Assembly (NCBI GenBank): GCA_017445405.1
Contig: JAFSUD010000042.1
Location: 1 to 64,000 of the forward strand
Reading direction: 5' to 3'
From: Synergistaceae bacterium
GTDB lineage: Bacteria > Synergistota > Synergistia > Synergistales > Aminobacteriaceae
Length of the DNA: 64,000 bases
A program made the position numbers and the translations under genes. The notes below the pieces were generated by a model that made no database searches, was not told the origin of the DNA, and was given only the letters and a program-made list of their open reading frames with translations. This document shows positions 7,408 to 26,854 of this stretch, one piece after another. Every line of letters begins with the position of its first letter. Position 1 is the stretch's first letter.

Positions 7408-8370
7408 ATGAACATCAAGCTGGATATTCCCGAGAGCTTTTACGCCGGAGAAGAAAGATGCGGCTACTATGTATCTCCTGAAATGAAGAAAGTCTGGGCT
7501 GTCGAGCTTGACATGATTGCTGAATTTGCACGTATCTGCGATAAATACAGCCTGAGGTGGTGGGTAGAGGGAGGGACGCTTCTTGGAGCTGCAAGACACA
7601 AGGGCTTTATTCCTTGGGATGACGACGTAGATATTGTAATGATGCGCAAGGACTACGAGAAACTGTGTGAAATTTCGGGCAGCGAGTTTCAGCATCCTTA
7701 TCATTTGAGGAGTCCTTACAACGACAAGGAAAGGATACAAGAATTCGCCAAGCTGCACAATGAAGATACAACTATGATTGACGGAATCTCATCTGCTGCA
7801 CTGTTCAGGAACGGCAGGAAATTCGGCTACAGTCAGGGAATATGGATAGATATTTTCCCCCTATATGATATTCCTGATAACGATGAGGAATTTATGCCGG
7901 TACTTCGGAAGGCTAGACGTTACAAGGAAACAGCCGGTCTTCTCTATACAATTGCATTTGCCTACACTCCCGCATCAACTAAATGGAAGCGGCCCTTCAA
8001 GGCAGCATTGCACTTCATGTCCGGATTTGCAGATATAGGTGCGCGGTACATGATGAAATGCTTTGCGAAGTACTTTGAGACAATCAATCTGCTGAATAGT
8101 CCTGACAGCAAGTATGTGGCTAATATATCGCCGACTACTTCACATGACTTTTGGAAAAAGTTTCGTGTGCCGCGTTCATTCTTTGATGAGACAGTCTATA
8201 TGACGTTCGAGATGCTGACAGTTCCCGCGCCTTCGTGTTATGAGACTATACTCACTCAGTACTACGGAGAATGGCAGAAGTATGTGATAGGGCATTTACA
8301 CAGCACATTCTATGACACTGAACGCTCCTATAAGTATTACATCGAACATGGTCTTCCTGAGGGCGTGTGA
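7408..8370 (+). CDS. LicD family phosphotransferase (first paralogue)
   Basis: 320 residues. The LicD core is clear: WWVEGGTLLGAARHKGF near residue 50, then PWDDDVDIVMMR with the acidic metal-binding cluster of this nucleotidyltransferase-like fold. LicD proteins attach phosphocholine or a related phospho-group to cell-surface glycans. The ATG at 7408 follows CGGAGG. The second licD at 9497 is a clear paralogue (same PESFY start, ERSYKYYIE end). No licA/B/C choline genes are in the window, so the transferred group is unknown. Confidence 0.88.
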   Translation: MNIKLDIPESFYAGEERCGYYVSPEMKKVWAVELDMIAEFARICDKYSLRWWVEGGTLLGAARHKGFIPWDDDVDIVMMRKDYEKLCEISGSEFQHPYHLRSPYNDKERIQEFAKLHNEDTTMIDGISSAALFRNGRKFGYSQGIWIDIFPLYDIPDNDEEFMPVLRKARRYKETAGLLYTIAFAYTPASTKWKRPFKAALHFMSGFADIGARYMMKCFAKYFETINLLNSPDSKYVANISPTTSHDFWKKFRVPRSFFDETVYMTFEMLTVPAPSCYETILTQYYGEWQKYVIGHLHSTFYDTERSYKYYIEHGLPEGV

Positions 8371-8416
8371 TATAATCGCGGGCATATTCCATTAAATCAC
8401 AAGGAGTTACCAGATA

Positions 8417-9364
8417 TTGAGCAACGTGAATTTACGCAAGGCTGCAGTAATCGGATGCGGTTTCGTCGGGAGCGCAAGTGCCTTCGCCCTCATGCAGAGC
8501 GGACTCTTCTCGGAGATGGTCCTCGTCGACGTTGACCATGAACGCGCAGAAGGCGAGGCTCTCGACATCGGGCACGGAATGCCTCTCGCCCGTCCCATGC
8601 AGATATACGCAGGAGACTACGACGACGCAGCAGACGCAGCAATAATTATCGTTACCGCTGGCGCAAACCAGAAGCCCGGAGAGACGAGATTAGACCTCGT
8701 CAAGAAGAATGTAGACATCTTCAAGTCCATCATGCCCGAGTTTGCAAAACGCAGCTGCAAGGGCGTGATGCTCGTAGTCGCGAATCCTGTAGACATTCTC
8801 ACTTACGTTGCGGCCAAGTACTCAGGCCTCCCGGTGAACAGAGTGATCGGCTCGGGCACAGTCTTAGACACTGCACGCCTAAAGTATCTGCTCAGTGAAC
8901 ATTTGGGCGTTGACAGCAGGAGCATTCACGCCTACATCATAGGCGAACACGGAGACTCGGAATTTGCTGCGTGGTCGAGCGCGAATGTGTCAGGTGTTCC
9001 TCTGTATGACTTCTGCAAGATGAGGGGGCACACGCATTTTCAGGAGGCCTCGCAGGAGATAGAGGACAGCGTTAGGAACAGTGCCTACGAGATAATCAAG
9101 CGCAAGCACGCGACGTATTACGGTATCGCAATGGCAGTGAAGAGGATATGTGAAGCAGTTATCCGCGACGAAAAATCTGTGCTGGCTGTGTCGAGCATGA
9201 TGAAGGACGTGTACGGCGTTGAGGATGTTGCGCTGAGTATGCCTGCGATTGTCGGCAAAGACGGAATCGAGACTCTGATTCCTGTGAGGCTTGACGTGAG
9301 CGAACAGAGGAAGCTGCGCGAAAGTGCATCAGTCTTGAAGGAGGTTATCAATGAAGTATTGTAG
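8417..9364 (+). CDS. ldh: L-lactate dehydrogenase
   Basis: 315 residues of the LDH/MDH family. The N-terminal NAD loop is GCGFVGSASA. The loop TAGANQKPGETR carries Gln at the specificity position, which indicates lactate rather than malate. IGEHGDSE holds the catalytic His. It interconverts pyruvate and lactate in the cytosol during fermentation. The start is TTG with AAGGAG 10 nt upstream. A TATAAT lies at 8371-8376, so it can be transcribed apart from licD. It sits between two licD paralogues, perhaps because a licD plus leader was duplicated around it. Confidence 0.93.
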   Translation: MSNVNLRKAAVIGCGFVGSASAFALMQSGLFSEMVLVDVDHERAEGEALDIGHGMPLARPMQIYAGDYDDAADAAIIIVTAGANQKPGETRLDLVKKNVDIFKSIMPEFAKRSCKGVMLVVANPVDILTYVAAKYSGLPVNRVIGSGTVLDTARLKYLLSEHLGVDSRSIHAYIIGEHGDSEFAAWSSANVSGVPLYDFCKMRGHTHFQEASQEIEDSVRNSAYEIIKRKHATYYGIAMAVKRICEAVIRDEKSVLAVSSMMKDVYGVEDVALSMPAIVGKDGIETLIPVRLDVSEQRKLRESASVLKEVINEVL

Positions 9365-9377
9365 CTACGCATTTTTA

Positions 9378-9388
9378 CCCCCCCCCCC
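9378..9388. repeat. poly-C tract (11 nt) upstream of the second licD
   Basis: Eleven C residues 13 bp after the ldh stop, in the same position relative to the hairpin and licD start as the 10-nt tract at 7280. Confidence 0.9.
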
Positions 9389-9424
9389 AGTAAGTAATTT
9401 ACGCAATAAATTAGAGACTAACAG

Positions 9425-9474
9425 CCGTGAAAGTATGGCAGTCTTTATTGACTGTGATGCCTTCGCGGTTTTTT
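9425..9474 (+). terminator. hairpin terminator or attenuator before the second licD
   Basis: CCGTGAA..G pairs with C..TTCGCGG around an inner GCAGTC/GACTGT stem, followed by TTTTTTG. It is equivalent to the 7336 hairpin and ends about 20 nt before the licD ATG. Confidence 0.75.
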
Positions 9475-9496
9475 GTGCTCTCAAGGAGGCGGCAGC

Positions 9497-10468
9497 ATGA
9501 ATATCAGGCTGAGTATACCTGAGAGCTTTTATGACGGCGAAGAACGAAGCGGGTATTATGTTTCTCCTGATATGAAGAAAATATGGGCAGTTGAGCTTGA
9601 TCTAATTGCGGAATTTTCGCGTGTCTGTGAGAAGAATAACCTGAAGTGGTGGATAAACTACGGCACGCTTCTGGGAGCTGTGAGGCATAATGGCTTCGTT
9701 CCTTGGGATGATGATGTTGATATTGTCATGATGCGCAGTGATTTCGAGAAACTGTGCGCTCTTGCTGATGATGAGTTTAAGCAGCCGTATCATCTTCGCA
9801 ATCCGCATAATGATCCGGAAAGGCCTATGGAATATGCCAAGCTGCATAATGAAGATACTACGCTTATAGATGACTATAACTCTATAGCTATGATCAAGCA
9901 CGGACGAAAATTCACATACAGCCAAGGCATATGGATAGATATATTCCCGATGTACGGCGTTCCTGATGATGACAGAACCTGCAGGCAGATATTCAGGAAG
10001 CTCAAGCTCTACAGGAAGCTGAGTTCTCTTTGCCGCAAACTCATCGACAATTATTATCCTGCTCCAACAAAATGGAAGCGTCCGTTCAAGGCAGCACTGC
10101 ATTTTATGGCAAAAGCTATGAATCTAGGCTACGATTACCGCAAGTATTTTGCTAAGTTTATGGAGACGCTTGACCTGATGGATGATCCGAACAGCATACG
10201 TACAGCCGATTTCTGGCCGATGATAACGAGGCCTGATTTCTTGGCAAACTTTCTTCTGCCGCGCTCATTCTTCGGTGAGACAGTCTATATGACGTTCGAG
10301 ATGCTGACACTTCCTGCACCTTCATGTTATGAGGAGATGCTCACCCGCTACTACGGCGACTGGAAAAAATGTGTTATAAGGCCTCCGCATGGCATGTTCT
10401 CAGATACTGAGCGTTCGTATAAGTACTACATAGAATACGGCCTTCCGGATGAGGTTAGAATACCATAG
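9497..10468 (+). CDS. LicD family phosphotransferase (second paralogue)
   Basis: 323 residues, collinear with the 7408 paralogue: WWINYGTLLGAVRHNGF, then PWDDDVDIVMMR. The ATG follows AAGGAGG at 7-nt spacing. Its last codons and the terminator behind it are duplicated in tandem immediately downstream (10403-10662). It probably modifies the same surface glycan as the first paralogue, with a possible difference in acceptor. Confidence 0.88.
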   Translation: MNIRLSIPESFYDGEERSGYYVSPDMKKIWAVELDLIAEFSRVCEKNNLKWWINYGTLLGAVRHNGFVPWDDDVDIVMMRSDFEKLCALADDEFKQPYHLRNPHNDPERPMEYAKLHNEDTTLIDDYNSIAMIKHGRKFTYSQGIWIDIFPMYGVPDDDRTCRQIFRKLKLYRKLSSLCRKLIDNYYPAPTKWKRPFKAALHFMAKAMNLGYDYRKYFAKFMETLDLMDDPNSIRTADFWPMITRPDFLANFLLPRSFFGETVYMTFEMLTLPAPSCYEEMLTRYYGDWKKCVIRPPHGMFSDTERSYKYYIEYGLPDEVRIP

Positions 10469-10662
10469 ACAGCAAGCCCCCCCCTGCCGTTCATGAACAG
10501 GGGGAATATTTTTTACAGCAGGACAGGAATAAAGATACTGAGCGTTCGTATAAGTACTACATAGAACACGGCCTTCCGGATGAGGTTAGAATACCATAGA
10601 CAGCAAGAACCCCCCTGCCGTTCATGAACAGGGGAATATTTTTTACAGCAGGACAGGAATAA
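10403..10662. repeat. tandem duplication (about 130 bp x2) of the licD 3' end and terminator
   Basis: The copy starting at 10534 repeats the sequence from 10403. It includes the last codons (TERSYKYYIE...), the stop and the C-rich hairpin. The copies differ by a few substitutions and by one base in the G run. The parent gene is unaffected. Confidence 0.92.
10480..10514 (+). terminator. Rho-independent terminator of the second licD
   Basis: CCCCCTG / CAGGGGG stem followed by AATATTTTTT. A second copy lies at 10611-10645 in the duplicated unit. The C run (10477-10484) is part of the stem. Confidence 0.85.
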
Positions 10663-20795: not shown

Positions 20796-21248
20796 ATGAG
20801 CAGCATAACCTTCAACGATGAATGCGTACACGTAGTCTTTCTTGGCCTGCCTAATGTGCCGGGCATAGCAGCAGAAATTTTCGGCACATTGTCTTCACAG
20901 TCAGTAAGTGTGAGTATGGTTACGCAGAACACTATGCGGGGAGGACGTTCGGACTTGTCGTTCCTCATCAGCAGAGACAGGCTCGACGACGTGATAGCTA
21001 TCTGCAGGGAACTCTCGGAGCGCGTGGGGGGACAGGGAGTCTCCTTCATGACGGAGATAGCCGCAATAACTGTGAGCCTCGACCCGACGGGAGACTCTGC
21101 GGGGACTCTTGCGAAGATATTTTCTGTTCTTGCGTCGGTGAAGGTGAACATAGAGATCATCAACTCGACCCGAGAGAGCGCAATATGCATAGTGAGCAAG
21201 ACGCATGCACATGAAGGCCTCGATGCCCTCAATAAAGCCTTTGCTTAA
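20796..21248 (+). CDS. stand-alone double-ACT domain protein (aspartokinase regulatory-domain-like)
   Basis: 150 residues made of two ACT domains and nothing else. LGLPNVPGIAAEIFGTL starts the first, TGDSAGTLAKIFSVLA the second, and VNIEIINS...KTHAHEGLDALNKAF is the aspartokinase-type ending. In aspartate kinase these domains bind Lys/Thr. As a free-standing protein it may be a regulatory partner; no kinase domain is nearby. The ATG at 20796 has GGAG 8 nt upstream; a longer reading from 20757 is less likely. Its 3' end is repeated twice downstream. Confidence 0.75.
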   Translation: MSSITFNDECVHVVFLGLPNVPGIAAEIFGTLSSQSVSVSMVTQNTMRGGRSDLSFLISRDRLDDVIAICRELSERVGGQGVSFMTEIAAITVSLDPTGDSAGTLAKIFSVLASVKVNIEIINSTRESAICIVSKTHAHEGLDALNKAFA

Positions 21249-21570
21249 GTGAGAACAGAAAATTGCTTGAGACACTTTACAGCAACATCATTTTTTTCTG
21301 CACACGTGAACGCAGACAGCCTCAGCCCGGGTTCGTGAGAGTGCAATATGCATAGTGAGCAAGACGCATGCACATGAAGGCCTCGATGCCCTCAACAAAG
21401 CCTTTGCTTAAGTGAGAACAGAAAATTGCTTGAGACACTTTACAGCAGCATCATTTTTCCTGCACACGCGGACGCAGGCAGCCTCAGCCATGCCCCCGAG
21501 AGTGCAATATGCATAGTGAGCAAGACGCACGCACATGAAGGCCTCGATGCCTTGAGGAAAGCCTTTGCCT
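21170..21570. repeat. tandem repeat (161-163 bp, three copies) of the ACT gene 3' end
   Basis: CAATATGCATAGTGAGCAAG occurs at 21181, 21344 and 21505. Each copy encodes the last ~22 codons of the ACT protein plus ~95 bp of trailing sequence. Only the first is attached to the gene. The third ends where the next gene begins. Confidence 0.95.
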
Positions 21571-22191
21571 AGAATAAAACCACTGCCTGCAATTTACGGC
21601 AATATCACTTTCCGCTCCCGTCTCGAGGCAAGATGGGCAATATTCTTTGACCGCTGCGGAATCAAATGGGAATACCGGCCTGTAACATTCAAGCTAAAAG
21701 TGTTTAAGCGTCAGCCTGAGAAAGATTACACGCCTGATTTTCTGCTTCATGATTTAGTGGGACGCGTGGAAGGTGATTTGTTCGTTGAAGTTCTCGGGAA
21801 ACTGACACCCTATAATCATTATTGCATTAAGGCTTTCACAAAACCTGACAGAGAAGGATACCCGGAACGCAAGCTGCTGGTGCTGAACGACATATTTTCT
21901 GAGCATGAAGAAGAGCCGGATTTCTGGTATGTAACTCTTGACGGAGACACATATTTTGACCGGGCAGCATATGAGGGCTTCAAGGAAAAGGAATACTTCC
22001 AGCATGAGACATTAGACGGGGATAACTGGCCCGCTCTGCTTGGAGTGAACAAAGACGGACAGGCAGAAATATTCGGGACAGACGGAGACAGAGATTATAG
22101 GTATTGTGCAGATGTTGAGAAAGTCGAAGCAGCATACACAGCAGCCCGTGATGCCGAGTTCACAGAGGAAGGATTGTATATTTCTCCGTAA
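21565..22191 (+). CDS. PD-(D/E)XK nuclease-like protein
   Basis: 208 residues. The N-terminus FRSRLEARWAIFFDRCGIKWEYRP followed by DYTPDFLL and FVEVLGK is the layout of a phage-type endonuclease-like family with the PD-(D/E)XK fold (Glu in helix 1, Asp, then Glu). The usual ExK is read here as EVLGK, so the catalytic Lys may be displaced and activity is uncertain. It opens with TTG at 21565, inside the third copy of the ACT 3'-end repeat, so its expression signals come from duplicated DNA. The terminator at 22193 follows. Confidence 0.6.
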   Translation: MPRIKPLPAIYGNITFRSRLEARWAIFFDRCGIKWEYRPVTFKLKVFKRQPEKDYTPDFLLHDLVGRVEGDLFVEVLGKLTPYNHYCIKAFTKPDREGYPERKLLVLNDIFSEHEEEPDFWYVTLDGDTYFDRAAYEGFKEKEYFQHETLDGDNWPALLGVNKDGQAEIFGTDGDRDYRYCADVEKVEAAYTAARDAEFTEEGLYISP

Positions 22192-22192
22192 C

Positions 22193-22230
22193 AAAAAACG
22201 GAGGAAGCAACTCTCTGCCTCCTCCGAAAA
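22193..22230. terminator. bidirectional hairpin terminator
   Basis: CGGAGGA-AGCA / TGCC-TCCTCCG stem with AAAAAA on the left and AAAA on the right. It gives a T run on the minus strand after the silent porin and lies just after the 22191 stop. Confidence 0.85.
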
Positions 22231-22271: not shown

Positions 22272-24002
22272 TTAGAACGTTACCTTTGTGCGGAATCTGA
22301 TTACATTATCTTCATCATTATTCCCGTTGCCGTCGCCGTCAACATGAATGTAGTTCAGGCCTAACGTAGTATAGTCATTCATTGTGTACTGAATGCCTAA
22401 GCCGTACTCCGCCGGCTTCCACTCATCAACTCCTGCTCCCCTGTCCATGTTGTAGCCGTAGTAGAAAATATGCGTCGCCCATTTGTCATTCCACTCCTGG
22501 CCAAGAGCTACACGCCAGTACTTGAGATCTCTGCCGAGCTGCGCAGCTCCCTCGTCTGCACCGAGTACTTTGCTCTCACTGGGGAATATTGCGCTCCAGC
22601 CCTGAGGTGCCCAGAACCCCGCATCATACTGCCCGTATTCCAGCCACACACTCGTATACTTCAACGCTTCCTGCTTGACATCAATTATTGCCGCCCAATG
22701 ATTCGCGTCGTCAATATCCCTGATGCCGTAGCCTACATCGCTCCATACACTGCGAGCCCCGCTTGTCGTTACGCCTTCAGCATCTATTGCCTGATGGTAA
22801 AATACTCCCTTGACTGCTATGTTGTCATTGAAGCTGAATCTCAGCCCTGCGAATACCGTCCACAAATTATTGAACGAATAGCCGCCTGCTCCGCTTACTC
22901 CGTTATTGCCGAGACGTGCAGTATACACATGGTCTCCGTCATTGTTGGCAGTATTGATTTCTGCGTTATCTCCGACAAATACTTGGCCTCCGATGTCTAA
23001 GCCTATCTGCTCCGTGAACTGAAGGTTAGCCATGAGGAACGCTTCCCACACGTTAGCCTGTACGTTCTTGTCAACGTTGCTTGTCGGGTTTCTGTCCTTG
23101 CCTAAACGCATGAAGGCATTTCCTCCGAGCGTAGGATGCGAGAAGTAAGCCTTGAGAGAACCCAGACCAAAATTCTTCTCCAGGCCGAAGCCCTGCCACA
23201 ATCTGTCTGTGAGGACTGAGCCGCCCGTCCAGCTTCCCGTTTCAGGCAGACTTATCTTGTAATCGCCTTCAACGTCCCAATTCTGACGGCCTACTGTGAG
23301 TGCTGAATCAAAGAAGAACGGCATAGTTACATAAAATCTGTCGAAGCGTATATCGCTGTCTTCACCTTTCTGGCCGCCCTCATCGCGCAGACGGGCAACA
23401 AATATATATTCGTTCTTGCCGTTATCAGGTATGGAAGCTCCTGCGCCGTGAACAGTGCTGTCGTTCTTAGTTGAAAGCCACGATGTCGCATCTCCGCCTT
23501 CCCATCTCTTCTCGAAGAATATCCTTGCCTCGTCAAAGCCGATAGACCCGTCGCCGTCTCTGTCTGCAGCGTTCTTCGCACTCTGATTCTTCACGTCAAG
23601 AGCCAGCGAGCCGTGAATATGCCATCCTCCGAGCCTGTCCTCAACCATTCTGACGCGTTCATCAAGTTCATCAACCCTTACTCCCAACGCTTCAAGTTCT
23701 TCATCAAACTCAAGCACAAGCCGCCTGATGTTCTCGATATCCTGCTTGCTCGCTTTGGTCATGTCCACAACAGCAAGCATTCTCGCAAGTGCAGATGCCA
23801 TTTCGTAGCGCGTCGTCGGCTGTTTTCCCTTATATGTGCCGTCAGGGTAGCCGGAGAGGATTCCGTCAGCCGCGAGCTGTCCTATTGCATCGTAAGCCCA
23901 ATGGTTGAGCGGAACGTCCATAAACGGATTCGTGGCGGAGAATGCAGGCACTACAAAGCTCACTGCAAGCACCGCACTGCAGAATATTACTGCTAATTTC
24001 TT
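22272..24002 (-). CDS. SLH-domain outer-membrane porin, silent copy without a start codon
   Basis: Reading from 24002 the frame gives KKLAVIFCSAVLAVSF..PAFSA, a signal peptide lacking only its Met. It continues with an SLH domain (NPFMDVPLNHWAYDAIGQL), a coiled coil (ELEALGVRVDELDERV) and a beta-barrel ending in RFRTKVTF, where the terminal Phe is typical of outer-membrane porins. About 575 residues. No ATG/GTG/TTG exists in frame between an upstream TAA and mid signal peptide (the first is GTG at 23972, which would drop the charged n-region), and there is no ribosome binding site. The rest of the frame is undamaged and a terminator follows, so it looks like a kept silent cassette. It is paralogous to the 25280 porin. 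Confidence 0.85.
   Translation of the reverse strand, partial: KKLAVIFCSAVLAVSFVVPAFSATNPFMDVPLNHWAYDAIGQLAADGILSGYPDGTYKGKQPTTRYEMASALARMLAVVDMTKASKQDIENIRRLVLEFDEELEALGVRVDELDERVRMVEDRLGGWHIHGSLALDVKNQSAKNAADRDGDGSIGFDEARIFFEKRWEGGDATSWLSTKNDSTVHGAGASIPDNGKNEYIFVARLRDEGGQKGEDSDIRFDRFYVTMPFFFDSALTVGRQNWDVEGDYKISLPETGSWTGGSVLTDRLWQGFGLEKNFGLGSLKAYFSHPTLGGNAFMRLGKDRNPTSNVDKNVQANVWEAFLMANLQFTEQIGLDIGGQVFVGDNAEINTANNDGDHVYTARLGNNGVSGAGGYSFNNLWTVFAGLRFSFNDNIAVKGVFYHQAIDAEGVTTSGARSVWSDVGYGIRDIDDANHWAAIIDVKQEALKYTSVWLEYGQYDAGFWAPQGWSAIFPSESKVLGADEGAAQLGRDLKYWRVALGQEWNDKWATHIFYYGYNMDRGAGVDEWKPAEYGLGIQYTMNDYTTLGLNYIHVDGDGNGNNDEDNVIRFRTKVTF
23988..24002 (-). repeat. left inverted repeat of the proposed invertible segment
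   Basis: On the minus strand AAGAAATTAGCAGTA, identical to 25283-25297 on the plus strand. It covers signal-peptide codons KKLAV. Sequences on both sides of it diverge between the two genes. Confidence 0.75.
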
Positions 24003-24061
24003 TTTCCGGCTTAGTGTAAAATTTGCATATTATAATTTCCTCACGAAAGAGAGTTCCTGTC

Positions 24062-24946
24062 ATGAACGATTTACTGGATGCATTCTTCAGATTTATTGAT
24101 GTCTCAGAGAAAACTGAAGCAATTTACCGCAGAGCATTGCGCCGTCTCTTCGGGTATTTCACCTCAAACGCAATCATCAGGCCTTCACGCGATGACATAC
24201 TGAATTTCCGAAGGCATCTCGAACGCCTCAGCAGAAAGCCAAGCACAATAGCTCTCTACCTTTCAGTATGCAGAAGATTTTTCACGTGGACAGCACACAC
24301 AGGCCTCTACCCCAATATCGCATTCGGCATCAAGACTCCCAAGCAGGAACCCGGCCACAAACGGGATTACTTATGCGCCGGACAGCTCCGCAAAATCCTT
24401 CACAGCATTGACCGCAGCACCCCGATAGGCAGAAGAAATTTCGCCGTCATCGCATTAATGGCTGCAGGAGGTCTCCGGACAATCGAGGTCTCCAGAGCAA
24501 ACATTGAAGATTTCCGCAAAGTCGGCAGACACACCTGCCTCTTCATTCAGGGCAAGGGTCGTAACTCCAAATCAGAGTTCGTGAAAGTCCCTGCCCCCGT
24601 CAGCACAGCAATCTGCGAATACCTGAGAGAGCGCGGCCAAGTCAATAACACCGCCCCTCTGTTCGCCTCAATGAGTTACAGGAACATGAACGGCAGACTC
24701 TCAGCCCGCAGCATTTCATTCATCTGCAAATCGGCAATGCAGGAAAACGGCTTCACCTCAAACCGTCTCACAGCCCACTCGCTCCGGCATTCTGCAATAA
24801 CTATAGCCTTATCTGCCGGAATATCTTTGAGCGAAGTTCAGGCCTTTGCGCGCCACAAGAGCATCACATCAACAATGATTTACGCGCATCATGTTGACCG
24901 CCTTAACAGCACATGCGAGGATACAGTATGCAGCGCAATTTTCTGA
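24062..24946 (+). CDS. tyrosine recombinase (XerC/D-like integrase)
   Basis: 294 residues. An N-terminal SAM-like core-binding domain (FFRFIDVSEKTEAIYRRAL.., STIALYLSVCRRFF) precedes a C-terminal catalytic domain with all expected residues: Arg in GGLRTIEV, Lys in GKGRNSK, His and Arg in HSLRHS, His in ARHKS and the nucleophile Tyr in TMIYAHH. So it should be active in cutting and rejoining DNA. The ATG at 24062 is preferred over a TTG at 24023; a TATAAT lies at 24031-24036. No phage genes accompany it. It lies between two inverted porin genes and inside the 15-bp inverted repeats, which suggests it inverts this segment. Confidence 0.92.
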   Translation: MNDLLDAFFRFIDVSEKTEAIYRRALRRLFGYFTSNAIIRPSRDDILNFRRHLERLSRKPSTIALYLSVCRRFFTWTAHTGLYPNIAFGIKTPKQEPGHKRDYLCAGQLRKILHSIDRSTPIGRRNFAVIALMAAGGLRTIEVSRANIEDFRKVGRHTCLFIQGKGRNSKSEFVKVPAPVSTAICEYLRERGQVNNTAPLFASMSYRNMNGRLSARSISFICKSAMQENGFTSNRLTAHSLRHSAITIALSAGISLSEVQAFARHKSITSTMIYAHHVDRLNSTCEDTVCSAIF

Positions 24947-24970
24947 AACACTCTGCGTGAAAATACAGAT

Positions 24971-24999
24971 TTGCATTTTTCAGGGTCATGTAGTAATAT
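24971..24999 (+). promoter_or_regulatory. candidate promoter of the expressed porin
   Basis: TTGCAT, 17-bp spacer, TAATAT. It starts after the recombinase stop and lies inside the inverted repeats. It is a moderate match only. A perfect TTGACA at 25251-25256 with CATAAT 19 bp later would start transcription inside the gene and is less likely. Confidence 0.5.
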
Positions 25000-25005
25000 A
25001 CTCAG

Positions 25006-25279
25006 CGTGCTACGGAAAATACGTAGTGAAATATCGTCAAACCGACGCAGAAACTTACGAACCAGAGGCCGCAGAAATGAGGTGCAAGAATCCCCGTTCA
25101 GGCATTACGGAAAAGTTAAAGCGAAGGGCGCAGGAGGTCGGATACAGCCTCACGAACTGTCAGAGGGACAGAAAGGAAACAAGGTAACTTTCCGCACCCC
25201 CGCAGACTCAGGGCAATAAGAAGACTGAGTGCGTAACAGACGGTAGCTTATTGACAATTTCATAAGGGGGTTATTCATA
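25006..25279 (+). promoter_or_regulatory. long, hairpin-rich 5' leader of the expressed porin
   Basis: About 275 nt without a convincing gene. Local stems are visible: CTACG/CGTAG (25010-25027), CTGTC/GACAG (25157-25172), GGAAA/TTTCC (25176-25194) and ACTCAG/CTGAGT (25206-25230). AAGGGGG at 25264-25270 is the ribosome binding site 9 nt before the ATG. Part of it (GGTGCAAGAATCC...GTCGGATACAGCC) loosely recalls a cobalamin riboswitch, but not well enough to name one. A stabilising leader for an abundant protein is the simplest reading. Confidence 0.45.
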
Positions 25280-26854
25280 ATGAAGAAATTAGCAGTAGTT
25301 CTTGCGATTATTTCTATCGCAGCAGTTGCAGCCCCGGCGTTTTCAGCGACAAACCCGTTCATGGATGTGCCGATGAACCACTGGGCATATGACGCAATCG
25401 GACAGTTAGCAGCAGACGGCATTCTTTCAGGTTATCCTGATGGAACGTACAAGGGCAAGCAGCCTACAACCCGTTACGAGATGGCCTCAGCATTAGCGAG
25501 ACTTCTTGCAGTGGTCGATATGACGAAGGCCAGCAAGAGCGATTTTGAGAACATGAGAAGGCTTGTAATGGAGTTCCAGGATGAGCTTGAGGCACTCGGC
25601 GTAAGAGTAGACGAGCTTGACGAGAGAGTTGCAGTGTTCGAGAACAGATTAGGCGGCTGGCACATTCACGGAACATTAGTGCTTGATGTCATCAACCAGA
25701 GCAGGAACAAGGCAGGAGACGCATTCGGGCCTGACGGTCAGGGATCAATCGGCTTCGATGAGGCAAGACTGTTCTTCGAGCGTACATGGGGCGAGAATGA
25801 TGACTTCTTCTTCAGAGCCAGACTTCGCGACGAAGAGGGCGGAAACGGACGCTTTGACAGATTCTATGCTGAGATGCCTTTCTTCTTCGATACCAAGTTC
25901 ACAGTCGGACGCTGGAACTGGGCATGGGAAGGCGCGTACAAGATCGATCTTCCTGAGGTCGGCGGCTGGACCGGAGACCAGATACTTACAGACTGGACAT
26001 GGACAGGCTTCGGCTTAACGAAGAACTTCGGACTTGGCACTGCAGACATAGCATTTGCACATCCCAACAACCTTACGTATGACGGTTTTGATGTCAATGA
26101 TTGGATGATCTTAGCAAGAGCGACGTTCCAGTTCACTGAGCAGATCGGATTCGATCTCGGCGGACAGGCATTCATCGGCGATAACGCAGAGGAGTTCACC
26201 GGAGCAGTTGATGCGAACGGCAACAGAAGACATGCAGCAGGCGACGTATCCTTCAACAACCTCTGGACGATATTCGGCGGTCTCCGCTTCAACTTCAACG
26301 ACGCAATCGGCGTAAAGGGCGTATTCTACCATCAGCAGGTTGACGGCGAGAAGGTAAACGCAACCAACACCGGCTGGTTCGATTACGGCTATGGCATTCT
26401 TGACGGCACGAGCTACAAGGATGACGCAAACCACTGGGCAGCAATCATCGACGTGAAGCAGGAAGCCCTGAAGTACACCAGCGTATGGCTTGAGTACGGC
26501 CAGTTTGACGAGGGCTTCATGGGTATGAACGGCGGAATGCTGTTCTACGGCGGACTTCTTCAGGAAGAGTACGGTGCAGGAGTTGCTAACTTCGACACGA
26601 AGTACTGGAGAGTCGGACTTGGCCAGAACTGGAATGACAAGTGGTCAACCTACCTGTTCTACTATGGATACAACGTGGAGAAGGGCAAGGGCAACGATGA
26701 CGCGAAGCCTTCAGAGTTCGGAGTCGGCGTAAGCTACAAGCTCAACGACTACACGACGTTCGGTCTGAACTACATGCACGCGGACAACGACCAGGACGGC
26801 AACGCAAGCCGCGAGGACAACGTAGTACGCTTCAGGACGAAGGTAACGTTCTAG
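25280..26854 (+). CDS. SLH-domain outer-membrane porin, expressed copy
   Basis: 524 residues. The signal peptide MKKLAVVLAIISIAAVAAPAFSA is followed by an SLH domain (residues ~25-85, NPFMDVPMNHWAYDAIGQL), a short coiled coil (~95-125) and a porin-like beta-barrel ending VVRFRTKVTF. The architecture is that of the OmpM/Slr-type proteins of Negativicutes, cyanobacteria and Synergistetes: the SLH domain holds cell-wall material and the barrel sits in the outer membrane. It likely makes an abundant surface pore. AAGGGGG precedes the ATG. It pairs with the silent minus-strand copy across the recombinase gene. Confidence 0.93.
   Translation: MKKLAVVLAIISIAAVAAPAFSATNPFMDVPMNHWAYDAIGQLAADGILSGYPDGTYKGKQPTTRYEMASALARLLAVVDMTKASKSDFENMRRLVMEFQDELEALGVRVDELDERVAVFENRLGGWHIHGTLVLDVINQSRNKAGDAFGPDGQGSIGFDEARLFFERTWGENDDFFFRARLRDEEGGNGRFDRFYAEMPFFFDTKFTVGRWNWAWEGAYKIDLPEVGGWTGDQILTDWTWTGFGLTKNFGLGTADIAFAHPNNLTYDGFDVNDWMILARATFQFTEQIGFDLGGQAFIGDNAEEFTGAVDANGNRRHAAGDVSFNNLWTIFGGLRFNFNDAIGVKGVFYHQQVDGEKVNATNTGWFDYGYGILDGTSYKDDANHWAAIIDVKQEALKYTSVWLEYGQFDEGFMGMNGGMLFYGGLLQEEYGAGVANFDTKYWRVGLGQNWNDKWSTYLFYYGYNVEKGKGNDDAKPSEFGVGVSYKLNDYTTFGLNYMHADNDQDGNASREDNVVRFRTKVTF
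25283..25297 (+). repeat. right inverted repeat of the proposed invertible segment
   Basis: AAGAAATTAGCAGTA, codons 2-6 of the porin. It is identical to the minus-strand sequence at 23988-24002. The right copy continues GTTCTT, giving AAGAA..TTCTT arms around the centre, like a tyrosine-recombinase core site. Confidence 0.75.

Follow-up and report, generated by a model that had tools for sequence, protein, structure and literature searches.

The locus described here lies in a 64,000-nucleotide (nt) stretch of DNA from a rumen-type Synergistaceae bacterium (assembly GCA_017445405.1, contig JAFSUD010000042.1, positions 1 to 64,000), referred to below as the window. It comprises two genes for OmpM-like porins with an SLH domain, pointing away from a 1.3-kb centre that carries a tyrosine recombinase gene and a single translation start. 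An earlier note, made from the letters of the window, had proposed that this centre inverts and thereby decides which of the two genes is preceded by a start. All elements of the divergent arrangement and of the shared centre of about 1.3 kb which it described are present at the following positions, where ON designates the porin gene equipped with the leader and start, and OFF the other one.

20799 to 21248, plus strand: ACT-domain (aspartate-kinase-like) gene, the flank marker that fixes orientation
22199 to 22226, minus strand: terminator-like hairpin, a 12 bp stem with a TTTTTT tail, 3' of the ACT-side porin
22272 to 24002, minus strand: ACT-side SLH porin (OmpM-like), OFF, an intact 577-codon frame without start codon, ribosome site or leader
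23988 to 24002, minus strand: copy 1 of the inverted repeat AAGAAATTAGCAGTA, covering codons 2-6 in the OFF porin; a putative recombination site
24003 to 25282, no strand assigned: putative invertible cassette with recombinase, promoter, leader, ribosome binding site and ATG, delimited by the opposite orientation in a related genome (G039) and by an in silico flip
24062 to 24946, plus strand: tyrosine recombinase, XerC/D-like, 294 amino acids, catalytic residues present
24971 to 24999, plus strand: putative promoter TTGCAT-17-TAATAT, placed by alignment, its -10-like element opening the conserved leader block
25003 to 25279, plus strand: conserved 5' leader of ~275 nt, which 29 genomes of the genus have at the porin
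25197 to 25201, plus strand: CCCCC, invariant, with predicted pairing to GGGGG in the ribosome binding site
25264 to 25270, plus strand: ribosome binding site AAGGGGG, recognized by sequence and alignment
25280 to 26854, plus strand: far-side SLH porin (OmpM-like), ON, with leader, ribosome binding site and ATG at 25280, 524 amino acids
25283 to 25297, plus strand: copy 2 of AAGAAATTAGCAGTA, codons 2-6 of the ON porin

The minus-strand porin was described as lacking a start, and its frame indeed runs intact over all 577 codons, with the hairpin behind it, while the codons between the preceding stop and the AAG that continues the gene read TAT GCA AAT TTT ACA CTA AGC CGG AAA. Inverting the 1.28-kb cassette (24003-25282) in silico yields ATG-KKLAVIFCSAVLAVSFVVPAFSATNPF..., a protein of 577 amino acids whose signal peptide looks normal and which follows the same leader, while the plus-strand porin loses its start. 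The predicted in-frame ATG and the silencing of the other gene are thus both reproduced in silico. The repeat, claimed to be identical and inverted over 15 bases, is exact at both porin starts, and no third exact copy occurs in the 2.53-Mb metagenome-assembled genome (MAG). No longer exact match exists between the two paralogues of the window; among the species with this arrangement the longest such match ranges from 14 to 23 nt, the upper value being from G039. Misassembly is unlikely, since the paralogues share no exact run longer than 15 nt in the window or 23 nt in G039.

Relatives of the recombinase were searched for in 83 genomes of the family and 188 of the phylum. Close relatives beside porins were found, besides the window, only in G041 (JAFSSM010000056.1, Synergistaceae bacterium RGIG3433, goat rumen; loci L040 and L112) and G039 (locus L041), both of the same genus, which makes 3 of the 188 phylum genomes. 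Each of these species is represented by one genome, and the comparison of orientations is one between species. Both relatives show two opposed porins around a recombinase and leader, one with a start and the other without, which is the arrangement that the earlier note had suggested seeking in related genomes. In both, the locus is flanked by ACT-domain and antiporter genes on one side and by PSP1 and tmk on the other; the ACT side recurs in the window. The porin fed by the leader is the far one in the window and G041, and the ACT-side one in G039. When G041 is compared with G039, both outer flanks are colinear and the centre is inverted, so that the cassette stands in opposite orientations relative to conserved flanks. 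The flank alignments stop exactly at the codon 2 AAG on both sides (position 6673 of L040 corresponding to 9314 of L041, and 7941 to 10584). In every species exactly one porin has the leader and ATG, and the silent gene is in frame for the flipped start.

A second, diverged porin with a PSP1 and tmk neighbourhood is present in G041 (L272, G041:C2:1-8000), on a contig that begins inside the conserved tether domain. This third porin was set aside as a diverged duplicate of the neighbourhood, probably from another species in the bin.

Identity of the genes follows their side of the locus and not their state. The signal peptide has 22 residues on the ACT side and 21 on the far side, whether the gene is ON or OFF. 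Synonymous differences in the N-terminal tether domain are 0.43-0.67 in same-side pairs and 0.77-0.99 in cross-side pairs. In the nucleotide tree of this domain the three ACT-side copies group in a single clade, be they ON or OFF (93/97, 94% of bootstraps), and the far copies fall among single-porin species. Synonymous-site distances and the tree together therefore show that the gene which is ON in G039 has its orthologues in the OFF genes of G041 and of the window. In each of the three species the silent gene is an uninterrupted frame of 532-577 codons. The ratio of nonsynonymous to synonymous changes (dN/dS) in the N-terminal part is 0.045-0.085 when an OFF gene is compared with its same-side counterparts, and such values, about 0.05-0.09, would not persist in a gene that was silent for good. 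Judged by these ratios, the OFF genes are under purifying selection, as is the recombinase.

The recombinase lying between the repeats had been called complete; it matches the Pfam Phage_integrase family (E 2e-20) and a SAM-like N-terminal domain. Residues R139, K165, R242, H265, and Y274 are invariant across 14 relatives, and H239 is nearly so. The XerC and XerD equivalog cut-offs are missed (TIGR02224, 99.8 vs. 335; TIGR02225, 99 vs. 330). Its frame is intact in all three cassettes, with dN/dS of 0.13-0.19 among the three species, and the three enzymes form one clade (100/98). Their nearest other relatives belong to small plasmids from this host group that carry DnaB-type replication genes, some of them demonstrably circular, such as the 6,974-bp plasmid L042 with a DnaB-type helicase gene, assembled 1.6 times over. 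Because of this placement, the enzyme of the locus is probably a recruited plasmid recombinase. The XerC/D-like family as a whole (L042-L047, L113-L171, L192-L200) occurs on small plasmids and on short plasmid-like or phage-like contigs, with hosts in Synergistota, Bacillota, Bacteroidota, Pseudomonadota, and others. In the recombinase tree the window pairs with G039 (97/89), and in the ACT-gene tree G041 and G039 are paired (99/98), a discordance hinting that cassettes may move between species.

Combining these observations, we consider it highly probable that the locus is a self-contained, site-specific DNA-inversion switch choosing between two OmpM-like porins. The opposite natural orientations of G041 and G039 relative to their flanks support this interpretation of the earlier note at the level of sequence comparison. 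The cassette would bring its own tyrosine recombinase together with a single promoter, leader, ribosome site, and ATG, and the recombinase would exchange strands at short inverted sites overlapping codons 2-6 of both porins. Each flip would take the sole start away from one porin and give it to the other, and at any time exactly one of them would be made. With a near-constant SLH and coiled-coil tether and a differing barrel, flipping would swap the barrel at the surface while a tether to the outer membrane is always present. Crossover is expected inside the flanking repeats, its exact bases being putative. We infer that this recombinase catalyses the exchange, that the exchange is reversible, and that it takes place within one strain; the OFF state would presumably give no product, and switching would presumably confer a benefit.

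Several observations weigh against this interpretation. Exact inverted repeats are present in the window and in G039 (17 nt), and the two sites of G041 have AAGAAAT alone in common before they diverge; the definition of the site is thus uncertain, or the switch may be locked in that species. AAGAAATTAGCAGTA is an ordinary porin start as well, occurring in several species with one porin and no recombinase beside it (e.g. G042, G022, G058, and G059). A classic tyrosine-recombinase site, with 11-bp arms and a 6-8-bp spacer, found no consistent match at the porin starts or on the related plasmids. The silent copy in G041 has an in-frame upstream TTG, which could in principle act as a weak start. 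Each species was seen in one orientation only, in its one genome, and G024, the nearest sister of the window by both leader and ACT gene, has no switch. Since the 15-mer also starts porins in species without a switch, the repeat taken alone is weak evidence, and with the G041 sites sharing only AAGAAAT, the case therefore rests on the comparison of loci. Chance leaves unexplained both the homology ending exactly at the repeat and the existence of an inverted relative. Further 15-mer sites in the genome were also considered and dismissed, as there are only matches with one mismatch, located at unrelated gene starts or within coding sequences and none at porins; two of these one-mismatch matches are at contig ends, in apparent transporter genes.

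Ordinary homologous recombination between inverted paralogues could have made the interspecies inversion, with the recombinase as a passenger. The paralogues are inverted, within a species their tether domains have 87-97% protein identity, and barrels have clearly recombined between loci, as in G039, where they are sisters (99/98). However, the signal peptide and tether stayed in place when the leader moved, which puts the breakpoint within the first few codons, in paralogues whose DNA is divergent and offers exact matches of at most 14-23 nt. An intact, constrained recombinase in all three cassettes also speaks against it, and we regard this explanation as very unlikely. A fixed arrangement, in which the window's startless porin survives as a silenced relic, the recombinase was left behind by the insertion and the orientations differ through a single ancient event without continuing switching, would suit a sample of three species, each in a single orientation, with a sister (G024) that lost or never had the switch. 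Yet the silent gene keeps its 532-577 codons and a low dN/dS at high synonymous divergence, the recombinase is constrained as well, and silent genes are still in frame with the flipped start; such an arrangement is very unlikely indeed.

That the locus is a plasmid integration site, with a recombinase that mainly inserts and excises plasmids, is brought to mind by the small plasmids, some circular and with DnaB-type replication, on which its nearest other relatives reside. No replication or plasmid genes were found at the locus, though, where the cassette consists of the recombinase and leader alone, and what varies between G041 and G039 is orientation, not presence. The probability of this explanation is practically negligible.

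The leader that would travel in the inversion cassette is found at the porin in the 29 genomes of the genus and nowhere else in them; its one match outside the genus, a 22-nt fragment, is likewise beside a porin. A conserved hairpin-like motif, GAAAGGAAACAAGGNAACTTTC, is visible in it (window 25003-25279; L040, L041, and L066-L083). An Rfam search with the leader gave no match at E<=10. Pairs between CCCCC and GGGGG are nearly invariant and hence show no covariation, and the fold of the window leader is no better than that of shuffled sequences (z -0.59), despite the strongly conserved primary sequence. The modelled pairing of CCCCC with GGGGG would make translation controllable, and the leader is a candidate for a new translational control RNA. 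A scan for consensus promoters of the region found nothing. As the conserved block opens at a -10-like TAATAT right after the stop codon of the recombinase, the promoter probably lies within the cassette, next to that stop. The plus-strand leader, AAGGGGG, and ATG of the earlier note hold, while its promoter-like sequence is probably not the promoter: the TTGACA before the ATG belongs to the conserved leader, and the promoter more likely lies near 24971-24999.

In the porins, the N-terminal signal peptide, SLH domain (PF00395), and linker match Veillonella OmpM structures 8bys and 8bym. The profile match (E 5.5e-30) covers profile positions 2-228, that is, the SLH domain, the coiled-coil linker, and the start of the barrel, 16-stranded in OmpM, into which it extends only to position 228; the C-terminal end is Phe. 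An AlphaFold model from a four-row alignment had a predicted local distance difference test score (pLDDT) of 33, too low to be used. In Veillonella, OmpM is a tether between the outer membrane and peptidoglycan as well as a general pore, and the same role has been argued for diderm Terrabacteria generally, so that its loss or change has large effects (PMC10628300). The label "porin" can be made more precise, the proteins being OmpM-like outer-membrane tethers and pores. No porin of this family beyond these two was found in the MAG, which is 87.6% complete, and a switch involving porins elsewhere in the genome was discarded, the MAG holding only these two of the type.

Tether parts are 82-97% identical among all six genes of the three species, and barrels, recombined between loci, are 54-72% identical. 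Barrels are mosaic (L041 7680-12224 and others), the two barrels of G039 being sisters while their tether domains are not; on this topology, they were exchanged between the two loci. Gene conversion (concerted evolution) of the tether domains, suggested by their 94-97% protein identity, was rejected, synonymous sites being saturated between paralogues; because of this saturation, the identity is ascribed to purifying selection.

In most species of the genus where the locus was found, a lone porin carries the same leader and no recombinase is present; wherever all four elements could be placed, their order is PSP1, porin, leader, ACT. Relative to this, the switch is a single-porin locus with an inverted second porin and a recombinase inserted between the leader and the ACT gene. 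It is dispensable, since the window's nearest sister, G024, does without it. One origin followed by loss, e.g. in G024, is suggested by the clade of ACT-side copies, and two independent gains are less favoured.

A wider proposal, to which we would give an even chance, is that of a two-state switch of the main outer-membrane anchor in a diderm bacterium, with a constant tether, an exchanged barrel, DNA logic allowing one ON gene only, a single regulated leader (predicted sequestration of the ribosome binding site) travelling in the cassette, and a recombinase taken over from small plasmids within the host group. If true, one anchor would always be on while the barrel swaps, either barrel would inherit the same leader control, and surface variation against phages, antibodies or nutrient conditions would be explained without loss of the envelope anchor.

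Mycoplasma vsa, vpma, and vsp systems (HvsR, Xer1) work alike, as a locus-encoded recombinase of lambda-integrase type links, by inversion, one promoter or start region to alternative surface-protein genes. In vsa of M. pulmonis, 5' coding sequence moves along with the promoter and ribosome site (PMC2268961). The mycoplasma loci are multigene and encode lipoproteins of wall-less hosts, whereas here two outer-membrane tether/porin genes are served by a recombinase inside a minimal cassette; the surface proteins share no homology with SLH porins, and the present locus is not a member of that group. For omp1 of the proteobacterium Dichelobacter nodosus, a multiple-inversion model was reportedly put forward by Moses et al. 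in 1995. No recombinase of this subfamily is known to us at that locus, and its proteins, unlike those studied here, are not of SLH/OmpM type. According to a survey, site-specific inversion governs alternative outer-membrane protein genes at omp1, and an inversion signature occurs in 1 of 2 Synergistetes species, for a gene which its text does not name (PMC5903667).

The parallel with Campylobacter fetus sap drawn in the earlier note is looser than those with mycoplasma vsa/vpma and Dichelobacter omp1. In sap, the choice between opposed surface-protein genes sharing their 5' end is made by inversion of a segment with the promoter; this segment is larger and contains no recombinase, inversion is RecA-dependent, and there are a long common 5' coding sequence and several silent cassettes. 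Exchange within a long shared 5' sequence is not what was found here, where the breakpoint is within the first codons and the longest exact run is 14-23 nt. Bacteroides SusC/SusD loci involve TonB-dependent receptors, multi-gene shuffling, and another recombinase and site arrangement. Switching of outer-membrane uptake proteins by site-specific inversion in these gut bacteria is the subject of a study listed in a later article (Nakayama-Imaohji 2009, in PMC11868660). Veillonella parvula OmpM1 (PDB 8bym/8bys) has the same SLH, coiled-coil, and barrel start, with four paralogues there and two mutually exclusive ones here. In the open-access literature we found no description of inversion control of ompM, of SLH porins or of a named Synergistota gene. 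Phase variation by DNA inversion is known; as far as could be checked, the novelty lies in its target, its host phylum, and a minimal layout of two genes.

Finally, three tandem copies of the 3' end of the ACT-domain gene lie at window 21171-21619, before the silent porin. The units are 125 nt long with a spacing of 161-163, and the further copies are 97% and 63% identical to the first.

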